64,000 nt of DNA from an uncultured Erythrobacter sp. (GTDB lineage: Bacteria > Pseudomonadota > Alphaproteobacteria > Sphingomonadales > Sphingomonadaceae). Where the stretch lies: positions 248,001 through 312,000 of the forward strand of contig CANLZP010000003.1 of assembly GCA_947495695.1 (NCBI GenBank), in the 5' to 3' direction. Both the position numbers and the translations under genes were made by a program. The notes below the pieces were generated by a model that searched no databases, had not been told where the DNA came from, and saw only the letters and a program-made list of their open reading frames with translations. Of this stretch, positions 11,489 through 14,704 are shown piece after piece (the stretch's first letter is position 1; every line of letters begins with the position of its first letter).

Positions 11489-11522
11489 AAGAGGGAGATA
11501 GGGCCAGACCTGTCTCCCTCTT
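11489..11522 (+). terminator. Hairpin terminator after rpmA
   Basis: AAGAGGGAGATAGG (11489-11502) pairs with CCTGTCTCCCTCTT (11509-11522) over 14 positions, including one T-G wobble, around a 6-base loop. The T-run after it is poor (GTCGTTTC), so it may be a weak terminator or an RNA-stabilising stem. Confidence 0.6.
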
Positions 11523-11625
11523 GTCGTTTCTCCCTCTCAAATCGCGTCGAATTCGGGTTCGGCGCAATCAAGTTGTCACGCGGCGCCTCTATCCGGCTCT
11601 TGCGGGGCGAGTAGGAGAGAGAATC

Positions 11626-12156
11626 GTGTTCCACCGCACACAAAGGCTATTGCTGCGGCCTATCTGGCCCGAAGATTGGAAGATCATATTGGGCGGCATT
11701 GCCGATGAAGGCGTCGTGCGCAACCTTGCGCGCGCTCCATGGCCTTACACCGCCGAGGATGCACAAGCCTTCGCCAATCTTCCTGTTTCTGATCCGCGCT
11801 GTCCGCGTTTTTTGATCACGCGCGCGCGTGATGGAGCTTTGCTGGGTTGTATCGGGCTGGACGAGAAAGACGGAATTGTAGAGCTGGGATATTGGATCGC
11901 TCGGCCATATTGGGGGCAAGGCATTGCGACAGAGGCAGGACAAGCGGTGATCGATGTGGCGCGCATGATCGGTCACACCCATCTTTGTGCCGGGCACTTT
12001 GTCGATAATCCGGCATCGGGCAAGGTGTTGAGAAAGCTGGGCTTTCAGCCGCAGGGCAAGACAAGCTACCGTCATAGCTGCGGGCGCGGCATGAAGGCTC
12101 CTGCGCATGAATACACCTTGGATCTGTCGACTGCCGAGGCCATGCGAGCGGCCTAG
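11626..12156 (+). CDS. GNAT family N-acetyltransferase (RimJ/RimL-like)
   Basis: A 176-residue acetyltransferase with the RimJ/RimL-type order: RTQRLLLRPIWPEDW at the N-terminus, GCIGLDEKDGIVELGYWIARPYWGQGIATEA in the middle (the G-Q-G-I-A-T acetyl-CoA loop), and NPASGKVLRKLGFQ near the end. Ribosomal or other protein N-termini are likely substrates by family, but this is not shown. I choose GTG 11626 because an AGGAGAGAG lies just upstream and homology begins there; the frame is open back to 11521 across the rpmA terminator. Confidence 0.85.
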   Translation: MFHRTQRLLLRPIWPEDWKIILGGIADEGVVRNLARAPWPYTAEDAQAFANLPVSDPRCPRFLITRARDGALLGCIGLDEKDGIVELGYWIARPYWGQGIATEAGQAVIDVARMIGHTHLCAGHFVDNPASGKVLRKLGFQPQGKTSYRHSCGRGMKAPAHEYTLDLSTAEAMRAA

Positions 12157-12257: not shown

Positions 12258-13139
12258 TTACTCGGCCGGCATCAAGGCGTCTTCAAACTCGCCTTCATAT
12301 TTGCCAATCAGCTCGCGGTCATCGTGATCCCATGGGTGGAAGCCGGGTTTGAAATAGGCCAGCCATGCCGGGAAGATGCGCGTCACAACACCCGGGCTAA
12401 CGGTGAGATATTTGAACAGGCCCCAGCGTGCTTTCCAACCCGTGATGCCATCTTGCGCAAGCAGGTTAAGCGAATCGTTCCAACGATTGCGGAAGAAGCG
12501 TGAGGTGACGGACAGCATCACGATGCTGCGCACTTTCCACGCTTTCCAGCCTGACCAATCCTTGGTGGCGTGCAGCCAAGTGTCATAGGCGACACCCTTG
12601 TGCTCAACCTCTTCAACAGAGTGCCAGCGCCACATGTCGCGCACTTCTGGATCGGCGTTTTCAAAATGCTTGGGATTGGCGAGGAATTCATGCGCCATCA
12701 TCGCGGTGTAATGTTCCAACGCCATCGTCACGGCCAGATTGGCAATCGCTGGGCGATCCTTGGTCAGCAGGAGCATTTCCTCCACTCGCTTGTCGATCGC
12801 CTTGATGTCATATCCGGCATCTTCAGCCAGGCGGTTAAAGGCGATGTGTTCGCGAGTGTGGTTGATTTCCTGCTTCACGAAAGCGCGAATTTCTGCCGCC
12901 AACTTTGGTGGCGCGCCCTCGCGATGAGCCTTAACCGCTTCGATAAAGAAGGCCTCGCCACGCGGAAATGTGGCTGACAATGCGTTGTGCCAGGCGGTGC
13001 CAAAGGGTTCGCCTGCCCACCAGCGCGATGGCTTTGTGTCGCGATTGAAACGTTCATCCCGCACGGTGATCTCTAGATCGGTGGGAGTAGGGCCGGAAGT
13101 GTCGGTCGTTTCGACATCGATTTTGGTTTGCGCGTTCAT
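12258..13139 (-). CDS. PF10118-type predicted metal-dependent hydrolase
   Basis: A 293-residue protein of the family described as predicted metal-dependent hydrolase (PF10118). Metal-ligand-like clusters are FVKQEINHTREHIAFNRL (E-x2-H-x2-EH), ALEHYTAMMAHEFL and WRWHSVEEVEHKGVAYD; this E/H pattern on helices resembles ferritin-like di-iron proteins. The biochemical reaction is unknown to me. It diverges from a TetR regulator, and two near-identical 23-bp dyad sites lie 24-71 bases upstream of its start, so repression by that TetR protein is likely. Confidence 0.85.
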   Translation of the reverse strand: MNAQTKIDVETTDTSGPTPTDLEITVRDERFNRDTKPSRWWAGEPFGTAWHNALSATFPRGEAFFIEAVKAHREGAPPKLAAEIRAFVKQEINHTREHIAFNRLAEDAGYDIKAIDKRVEEMLLLTKDRPAIANLAVTMALEHYTAMMAHEFLANPKHFENADPEVRDMWRWHSVEEVEHKGVAYDTWLHATKDWSGWKAWKVRSIVMLSVTSRFFRNRWNDSLNLLAQDGITGWKARWGLFKYLTVSPGVVTRIFPAWLAYFKPGFHPWDHDDRELIGKYEGEFEDALMPAE

Positions 13140-13162
13140 CAGAAATCCTGAGGGTTGAAAAG

Positions 13163-13185
13163 CTTACTAACATCAATGTTAATAG
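13163..13185. promoter_or_regulatory. Operator 1 for the TetR regulator (predicted)
   Basis: The core TAACATCAATGTTA at 13168-13181 has arms TAACAT/ATGTTA, flanked by CTTAC and ATAG. A copy with four differences begins 25 bases further on. It sits 24 bases upstream of the PF10118 start, where RNA polymerase would bind. Confidence 0.65.
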
Positions 13186-13187
13186 CC

Positions 13188-13210
13188 CTTACTGACATTG
13201 ATGTCAATAG
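13188..13210. promoter_or_regulatory. Operator 2 for the TetR regulator (predicted)
   Basis: The core TGACATTGATGTCA at 13193-13206 has arms TGACAT/ATGTCA, with the same CTTAC and ATAG flanks as operator 1. Compared with operator 1, the change at arm position 2 (A to G) is matched by the change at its partner (T to C), so dyad symmetry is kept. Confidence 0.65.
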
Positions 13211-13362
13211 TGTAATATGGCTTCTATCCAATGGCTTGTCATCGGGTTGACCCAAATAGGGTCCGCGCGCGCTTGCTCTGCATGCTTGAGCTTTCGCGCG
13301 ATGGTCTCTAATCCGTACAGATCAGCCTTCTGTGGAAGGTCTGGAGGGATTCGGAACACAAT

Positions 13363-13962
13363 ATGACAGGTCGCAAACGTCTGACGCCTCAGGAATCGCG
13401 CCAATCCGCGCTGCAAGCGGCGCGCGCTTTGTTGATTGAAAGCGGGCCGCAATCTGTCACTTTAAAGGCGGTGGCCGGGCGCATAGGCCGCACGCATGCA
13501 AACTTGCTCCACCATTTTGGCTCTGCCTCAGGTTTACAGAAGGAGCTGGCCCGCCATCTGAGCGAGACCGTGTGCGAAACGATCAAGCACGCTGTCGAAG
13601 CGAGCCGGGCGGGGCTGGGCTCACCGCGCGAAGTGGTCGATCTGGCGTTTGATGCTTTTGACAAGGAAGGCGCGGGCGCGCTTGCCAGTTGGATGATCCT
13701 GACGGGCAATGAAGATGCTCTCAGCCCGATTGTCGAAACTATCCATCAATTGGTGGACGAGATCGCTCCCGACGAAGCGGCCAATCATGGCGGCGCAATG
13801 CGCTTGCACGAAGAGACCCTTGCACTGGTCTTGATGGCCATGGGTGATGCGTTGATCGGATCGGCGCTGGCCCGTTCGCTTGGGCTACCAGAAACCGCAG
13901 CCCGTGATCGGGCAGAGCGTATGCTCGAAGGTTCAATCGATCTGGTCAATCAGCAGGGGTAA
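13363..13962 (+). CDS. TetR/AcrR family transcriptional regulator
   Basis: A 199-residue regulator. The N-terminal helix-turn-helix is QSALQAARALLIESGPQS followed by VTLKAVAGRIGRTHANLLHHFG, the classic TetR pattern in which LLHHFG replaces the usual LYYHF. The C-terminal ligand-binding domain is not specific enough to name a ligand. It is transcribed away from the PF10118 gene, and the paired dyads in the 223-base gap are its likely operators, probably also affecting its own promoter. It converges on ygfZ with a 17-base overlap of the coding ends. Confidence 0.92.
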   Translation: MTGRKRLTPQESRQSALQAARALLIESGPQSVTLKAVAGRIGRTHANLLHHFGSASGLQKELARHLSETVCETIKHAVEASRAGLGSPREVVDLAFDAFDKEGAGALASWMILTGNEDALSPIVETIHQLVDEIAPDEAANHGGAMRLHEETLALVLMAMGDALIGSALARSLGLPETAARDRAERMLEGSIDLVNQQG

Positions 13963-14704
13963 GAGCGCTTGCCAGCCATGCGGGAGCGTCTGCAGGATCA
14001 ATATCGGCTAGCCGCAAATGATCCACCGCCAGTCCCAATTGCGGATAGGCATGCTTGCGCCGCTTTTCTTGTGACTGATCCAGCGGAACCACCACCAGCC
14101 GCCGGTTGACCTTTTGGCGCCAGTTCATCCGCGCGGTGTTTTCTTGGCCAATATAGCAACCTTTGTCGAAGCTGACGCCGTTCAGCTCGACCGCATTTGT
14201 CTCAAGCCACAGGATATCGCCCAGTTCTGCTCGACCTTCGGGCACGCCGAGCGATAGGCGGTGGCGAAGCCAATCTGCGTCAGCCGCATTGTCTGTTTCG
14301 CAGATCTTGGCAATCCGTCGCTGACCCAAGTCGGCATGGCGGGGATCAGGCGCACCTTCATCTCCCCCTGTTTGCAATTGCCAATAAACGCCCAATGTTT
14401 CGTCGCGCTCGATCGCGATTTTGCGCCGCAAACGGTAGAGCGACAGGCGTTTCACCAATTCATCTGCAACTTCGGCTTCGCAATCCAGCAACAAGCCGCC
14501 TTGGTCTGCTGGCCAGACCAGAAAATCGAACATGGTCTTGCCTTGCGCGCTCAGCAGCGCGGCATAGGCTGGCAGAGTGGCGGTAACGTCATTTGTCACC
14601 AAACCTTGCAGGAATTCGGCGACATTTTCGCTGTCATCGATCGGGCTGAGCCGAACTACGGCCCGTTCAAACAATCGCGCAAGTTGAGGGGAATTGTCGC
14701 TCAT
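13946..14704 (-). CDS. ygfZ: YgfZ/GcvT-fold protein (Fe-S cluster assembly)
   Basis: A 252-residue folate-binding protein of the YgfZ/IBA57 family, which assists assembly or repair of certain [4Fe-4S] proteins. The family signature K-G-C-Y-x-G-Q-E is present as SFDKGCYIGQENTARM, together with the GcvT-like N-terminus and VTNDVTATLPAYAALLSAQGKTMFD. The start ATG at 14704 overlaps the stop of the upstream ATP-grasp gene by 4 bases, so the two are coupled. Confidence 0.9.
   Translation of the reverse strand: MSDNSPQLARLFERAVVRLSPIDDSENVAEFLQGLVTNDVTATLPAYAALLSAQGKTMFDFLVWPADQGGLLLDCEAEVADELVKRLSLYRLRRKIAIERDETLGVYWQLQTGGDEGAPDPRHADLGQRRIAKICETDNAADADWLRHRLSLGVPEGRAELGDILWLETNAVELNGVSFDKGCYIGQENTARMNWRQKVNRRLVVVPLDQSQEKRRKHAYPQLGLAVDHLRLADIDPADAPAWLASALTPAD

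Follow-up and report, generated by a model that had tools for sequence, protein, structure and literature searches.

The TetR-family regulator encoded at positions 13363–13962 (plus strand) of the window analysed here, 64,000 nucleotides from the genome of an uncultured Erythrobacter sp., probably represses the adjacent PF10118 gene through tandem operators, in many relatives its own gene as well, and a set of fatty-acid and alkane oxidation genes elsewhere in the genome, with an acyl ligand releasing it. We infer repression rather than activation. Without ligand, TetR dimers would sit on the tandem operators and cover the divergent PF10118 promoter, whose putative -35 element, TTGACA, lies in operator 2; in many relatives they would also cover the TetR start, so that both genes are repressed. 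At each unlinked target the same protein would bind a single site at the promoter or the start codon; these genes code for FadD, an acyl-CoA thioesterase, an SDR, a Coq4-like protein, CYP153 and other P450s, a flavin monooxygenase, and a GMC oxidase. Incoming lipids or alkanes would give rise to a fatty acyl ligand (most likely an acyl-CoA or a free fatty acid) that releases TetR and thereby induces the pathway.

Tandem sites beside the TetR gene and their distribution

The PF10118 gene (12258–13139, minus strand, 293 aa) scores 259.1 bits against a Pfam cut-off of 33.2, and the TetR protein (199 aa) scores 28.5 bits with PF00440 TetR_N, for which the cut-off is 24. The intergenic region between them (13140–13362) holds two 23-bp repeats, the PF10118-proximal candidate operator 1 at 13163–13185 and the TetR-proximal candidate operator 2 at 13188–13210. 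They differ at four of 23 positions (7 A/G, 12 C/T, 13 A/G, and 18 T/C), and both contain TRACAT-N2-ATGTYA. The 20-mer of operator 1, TACTAACATCAATGTTAATA at 13165–13184, has two mismatches to the consensus TACTKACATNNATGTCAATA, and that of operator 2, TACTGACATTGATGTCAATA at 13190–13209, matches it exactly. These two sites, with their four differences, starts 25 bp apart, and common dyad, had been described in the initial annotation and were confirmed; when the intergenic sequence was simulated 3000 times with a Markov model, no repeat of at least 19/23 with starts 23–59 apart arose. The exact dyad is found twice in the window, both times in this intergenic region, and five times in the 2.74-Mb genome, versus none for the reversed control.

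Two neighbours frame the pair. A GNAT acetyltransferase gene (11521–12156, plus strand), which in relatives is often found upstream of the pair as well, appears to be no more than a neighbour. On the other side, a 252-aa ORF (13946–14704, minus strand), which we take to be YgfZ-like, is convergent with the TetR gene and overlaps its end by 17 bases; it has no Pfam match, and a counterpart lies beside TetR in 41 of 57 loci.

A TetR match was found in 60 of the 61 genomes of the genus. Among 199 family genomes of good completeness, 174 gave a match at a threshold of E 1e-3; 15 of these matches were weak, none better than E 1e-8, and were left uncounted. The relatives concerned belong to Erythrobacter, Altererythrobacter, Qipengyuania, Pelagerythrobacter, Pontixanthobacter, and other genera. 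On sequence grounds the divergent PF10118/TetR arrangement is old, since it occurs in other genera with PF10118 proteins at 38–84% identity. We divided the PF10118 proteins into two types according to whether BLAST scored them higher against the window protein (type A) or against the B protein of locus L018 (type B). A site with at most three mismatches to TACTKACATNNATGTCAATA stands within 230 bp upstream of all 71 PF10118-A genes (49 from named loci and 22 from further loci; a few genomes may be counted twice in the collection, e.g., L080/L211, both without PF10118), so that the search upstream of orthologous pairs suggested by the initial annotation gave a match for every gene of this type. 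When up to four mismatches are allowed, 46 of these promoters have two sites, 25 bp apart in 41 and 24 bp apart in 5, and the other 25 show a single site. None of the 25 remaining PF10118 genes is preceded by a site; these are 24 PF10118-B genes and that of the distant PF10118/TetR pair L091, which is 38–40% identical to both types and falls to B.

PF10118-B, a paralogue with about 47–54% identity, adjoins TetR in 24 of the 80 named loci. PF10118-A lies behind it in 12 of the 16 B-adjacent loci that were read, and the sites remain at PF10118-A there. The TetR gene itself has a site within 400 bp in all 32 A-adjacent loci, in none of the 24 B-adjacent loci, and in none of the 24 loci where neither type is adjacent, a class that includes L206, in which PF10118-A and its sites lie about 1 kb from TetR. 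Autoregulation is therefore not general: the window has a palindromic site near its TetR gene, and 48 of the 80 named loci keep TetR without one within 400 bp. In genome G212, TetR is on contig 2, and a PF10118 gene on contig 6 still has a site at its start.

Several of these loci have further peculiarities. PF10118-B, without an operator, sits between PF10118-A and TetR in L173, L175, L177, L179, L180, L200, L205, and similar loci, and in PF10118-B loci a different common stretch (CTATTAGG or similar) directly precedes the TetR ATG. Locus L153 (G098:C6:473707) is a second divergent pair, with TetR at 40% and PF10118 at 45% identity and with its own related dyad, TATTTACATTGATGTAAATT; judged by these identities, it is a paralogous copy of the PF10118/TetR module. 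The genome studied here also has a second PF10118 gene, 27% identical (L015, G000:C2:420073-420795), near an ORF that looks by eye like an ETF-quinone oxidoreductase.

The site also co-occurs with the regulator. It is present in 21 of 33 TetR-bearing family genomes versus 2 of 33 TetR-less ones (Fisher p 5.6e-7), a p value that overstates independence because both groups cluster by genus, and the TetR-bearing genomes were hand-picked rather than random. Without the sites close to the TetR gene, 13 of the 33 TetR-bearing genomes still have one (p 1.2e-3), and 12 of the 33 have no site at two mismatches. The TetR-less and weak-match genomes (25 + 15) supplied the 33 of the main comparison; five were left out, and two, G112 and G163, were used elsewhere and have no site at three mismatches, although G112 has six control matches. 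In a second set, 9 of 12 TetR-bearing genomes have the site and the other three have none at two mismatches. Among genomes of other families without TetR, the site was found in 3 of 15, none of them at a target.

It is conceivable that the motif is owned by some other lipid-oxidation regulator, whether a FadR-like protein or a TetR other than this one, and that the adjacent TetR is a passenger or controls something else. Many genomes have TetR without a nearby site while the fadD and thioesterase sites persist, and the presence of a TetR gene next to one site says little about the distal ones. We nevertheless find this unlikely: within the family the motif tends to occur together with this TetR, the site overlaps the start codon of TetR in many distant genera, and the TetR-like proteins that BLAST with this TetR detected beside sites were its orthologues or, in one case (L153), the 40% paralogue that adjoins a PF10118 gene of its own.

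Sites at unlinked genes

The initial annotation had proposed a genome scan for more targets, and the exact dyad was indeed found at three further places: it spans the start of fadD (C1:647546), lies at the start of a 4HBT thioesterase gene beside a CrtZ-like gene, identified as CrtZ by eye (C1:1283648), and precedes an SDR gene (C3:68313). With one mismatch, the short dyad occurs at ten places in the same genome, nine inside coding-looking ORFs and the tenth at L011. These places appear chance-like, because they are mostly intragenic and the reversed control gives five. Across the 61 genomes of the genus, CTGACATNNATGTCAG with at most one mismatch occurs 123 times, a total summed by hand, versus once for the reversed control, which was not dinucleotide-matched. 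Reading the 30 genus loci among the matches listed by eye placed 11 at fadD, 5 in the thioesterase/leuC region, 4 with Coq4-like/nitroreductase genes, and 1 with PF10118, the other 9 lying elsewhere.

A longer pattern, with at most two mismatches, was then used for 67 TetR-bearing genomes (22 + 12 + 33), in which all distal sites were read. Recurrent targets account for 62 of the 68 distal sites: Coq4-like genes (18), fadD (15), P450 genes including CYP153 (13), 4HBT (7), a small protein (4), GMC oxidoreductase (3), SDR (1), and an unlinked PF10118 gene (1). These counts are partly circular, because the pattern derives from sites linked to PF10118 and TetR, which also first revealed some of the classes, and the GMC, P450c, and small-protein classes were defined from loci found with the same pattern. 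Of the 25 distal sites read after the target list was fixed, 21 fit it. L118, L163, L303, L305, L315, and L316 are the six that fit no target. Among the assignments, L106 and L115 were placed with the thioesterase, and L146, L147, and L270 are over-long ORFs whose true starts were placed by length. In the TetR-less genomes, none of six distal sites falls at a recurrent target. The P450 target of L140 matches CYP153D17 (5h1z) at E 4e-165. Sites with three mismatches add a flavin monooxygenase with a TonB receptor, a penicillin-amidase-like acylase, and a fatty acid hydroxylase, and this level also yields several intragenic, chance-like matches. The sites at the Coq4-like, FMO/TonB, and small-protein genes of the genome studied here all belong to this chance-prone three-mismatch level.

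Coq4-like genes are the commonest distal target, and their tie to lipid oxidation is puzzling. The only Coq4-family gene found in the genome studied here (L133, G000:C2:654791-655315) has a site with three mismatches. A protein of 101–113 aa also recurs as a target (L134, L138, L171, L278, L306, L311, and L314), and the copy from L134 had no Pfam or NCBIfam match. The operator core, ACATnnATGT, holds an ATG in each direction, which is likely the start codon of the gene in several targets, namely fadD (L126, L144, L273, and L280), 4HBT (L002 and L277), and TetR (L107, L108, and L260).

The genome and genus scans led us to set aside a purely local operator. The earlier reading of the locus was local; it was right about the operator-like sites and missed both the regulon in trans and the di-iron-oxidase look of PF10118. 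One could still imagine a local switch, in which TetR controls only PF10118 and itself by cooperative binding to the pair and the distal matches belong to a separate regulon or arose by chance. The 24–25 bp spacing of all 46 double promoters would suit such a switch, as would the distal targets, at which no second site was found at offsets of 20–40 bp with up to five mismatches (0 of 57). This lack of a second site speaks against cooperativity at the distal targets. However, the distal sites share the extended motif and precede the same lipid genes in different genera, and there are 123 sites in the genus against one for the reversed control, which makes a local switch an improbable account. 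A regulon in trans under the control of this TetR remains our preferred reading.

Dyad letters, promoter geometry, and spacing

The initial annotation had treated the A/T and G/C pairs at the same arm positions of the two sites as compensating changes that support the dyad. We examined 91 distinct sites, picked at up to four mismatches to a pattern favouring K at position 5 and C at position 16 of the 20-mer and hence somewhat biased. Eight letters are invariant among them (T4, A6, C7, A8, T13, G14, A17, and T19). Positions 5 and 16 vary on both sides, being T/C in 40, G/C in 24, and G/A in 16 of the 91 sites, and the A/T of the first site of the window is the sole such case. The two positions are complementary in 29 of the 91 sites, fewer than the shuffle mean of 41.2. 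The compensation is thus true in the letters yet coincidental as evidence, and we reject compensating change as proof of the dyad. What stands of the claim that these are TetR operators of the PF10118 promoter is the link to TetR and to the promoter, given the 71 of 71 genes and the few TetR-less genomes with the motif. The motif of PsrA, GAAAC-N4-GTTTC, appears unlike the site described here.

The candidate -35 element of the PF10118 promoter, TTGACA (13202–13207, minus strand), falls within operator 2, and a candidate -10 element, TATTAA (13179–13184, minus strand), lies 17 bp downstream within operator 1. The TGTCAA that reads TTGACA towards PF10118 is present in 45 of 46 TetR-proximal copies of the double promoters and in 5 of 46 of the other copies. 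The -10 assignment is weak, because the hexamer is not kept in relatives, 26 of 46 having TACTTA. A sigma-70 consensus scan predicted a single weak minus-strand promoter, ATGACA-17-CATATT at 13242–13214, unlike the TTGACA/TATTAA reading. The 24–25 bp spacing may mean that a single promoter is blocked twice, that the dimers cooperate, or both, and its constancy may fit the covering of the -35 and -10 of one promoter as well as it fits cooperativity. The 25 of 71 promoters with a single site and the 57 distal targets without a second one do not favour cooperative binding. That the repeat merely survives from a promoter or a duplication and does not act as an operator is barely credible, even with TTGACA embedded in operator 2, as the palindrome is kept on both arms across genera (91 sites, up to four mismatches), also where it overlaps start codons.

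The two proteins and comparison with known systems

The AF2 model of TetR (pLDDT 84.4) consists of helices only, as in the TetR fold, and the helix-turn-helix segment RTHANLLHHF is nearly invariant in its relatives. The best PDB matches to the model are TetR-type regulators (E 1.6e-4), and it resembles EthR2 and FasR. No NCBIfam equivalog scored above its cut-off, the best being BetI at 28.2 versus 201.3.

PF10118 proteins are annotated as "predicted metal-dependent hydrolase". The window protein is a clear member of this Pfam family, but its model and its ligand-like residues point to a di-metal oxidase. As a sequence search of the PDB gave no useful match, the fold result rests on the AF2 model, which is all-helical (pLDDT 86.6). 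In Foldseek the top rows, none better than E 0.02, belong to aldehyde-deformylating oxygenase, CmlI, acyl-ACP desaturase, and R2 proteins. With VIA, CmlI (Z 14.4, rmsd 4.3 over 238 residues) and AurF (Z 14.2, rmsd 3.9 over 237) were tied on top with R2 chains, at a level just above what helical bundles may reach by common arrangement alone. Seven residues are invariant in 22/22 and 36/36 rows and form the pattern E62, E91xxH94, E142, H173, E177xxH180, with one set on each long helix of the model. This repeats the order found in AurF, namely E, ExxH, E, H-x3-E-x2-H. The Pfam AurF family was matched by 1 of 22 PF10118 relatives (E 9.9e-4). From the model, the seven invariant residues, and the AurF match, PF10118 is likely a ferritin-like di-metal oxidase of a lipid substrate rather than a hydrolase.

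We also put forward, tentatively, a wider proposal: throughout the Erythrobacter/Qipengyuania family, TetR could be the master regulator, as yet without a name, of the oxidation of fatty acids and alkanes. Its oldest partner, PF10118, would be an uncharacterised family of di-iron oxygenases of the AurF/ADO kind, misnamed hydrolases, whose substrate is a fatty acyl, alcohol, or aldehyde intermediate. In several target families the operator and start codon would form one element serving both repression and initiation. Bacteria that use lipids and oil are widespread among the sphingomonads and the relatives of Erythrobacter. With a defined operator, the regulon can be predicted from family genomes, and PF10118 becomes tied to lipid oxidation with an activity open to testing, namely oxygenation by a di-iron centre in place of hydrolysis. 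If the proposed circuit is true, a ligand-responsive TetR with a known operator could be used as a part for fatty-acid or alkane biosensors.

The available portions of the open-licence literature gave no description of this regulator, its operator, its regulon, or PF10118 as an oxygenase, and no published regulator of sphingomonad or Erythrobacter fatty-acid or CYP153 genes; the match to PF10118 in those portions concerned lanthipeptide proteases. For FadQ, no paper linking it with Caulobacter was found in the open-licence literature.

Among known systems, FasR and EthR2 of Mycobacterium have the folds nearest to TetR, at 16–20% identity in their rows, and AcnR and Rv3249c are the nearest by sequence. 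The title of PDB entry 6o6n gives FasR with C20-CoA; NCBIfam labels FasR an activator, and TetR scores 20.5 in that family versus a cut-off of 330. For PF10118, the relevant systems are CmlI/AurF and the cyanobacterial aldehyde-deformylating oxygenase, which are all-helical like its model but differ from it in sequence, with about 10–16% identity, and ribonucleotide reductase R2 chains tie with them in VIA. The CYP153 alkane hydroxylase systems are represented among the targets by a close relative of CYP153D17. In the partial sources available, the regulators described belong to hosts other than those considered here, for instance CrgA (LysR) and AlkR (GntR/VanR) of alkB2 in Pseudomonas. In the available part of PMC5343134, which describes FadR, PsrA, and FadP, FadP and LiuQ are, of the factors studied, named as found in betaproteobacteria only; Sphingomonadales appear once, for a histidine transporter, with no fatty-acid regulator named for them. 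PsrA and FadP are similar to the present regulator in being TetR proteins with a fatty-acid oxidation regulon, but they belong to another lineage and are set apart by the description in that part of the source (PMC5343134). TetR regulons of lipid catabolism are of a kind already known, and the probably mis-annotated PF10118 enzyme is the more surprising part of the system.
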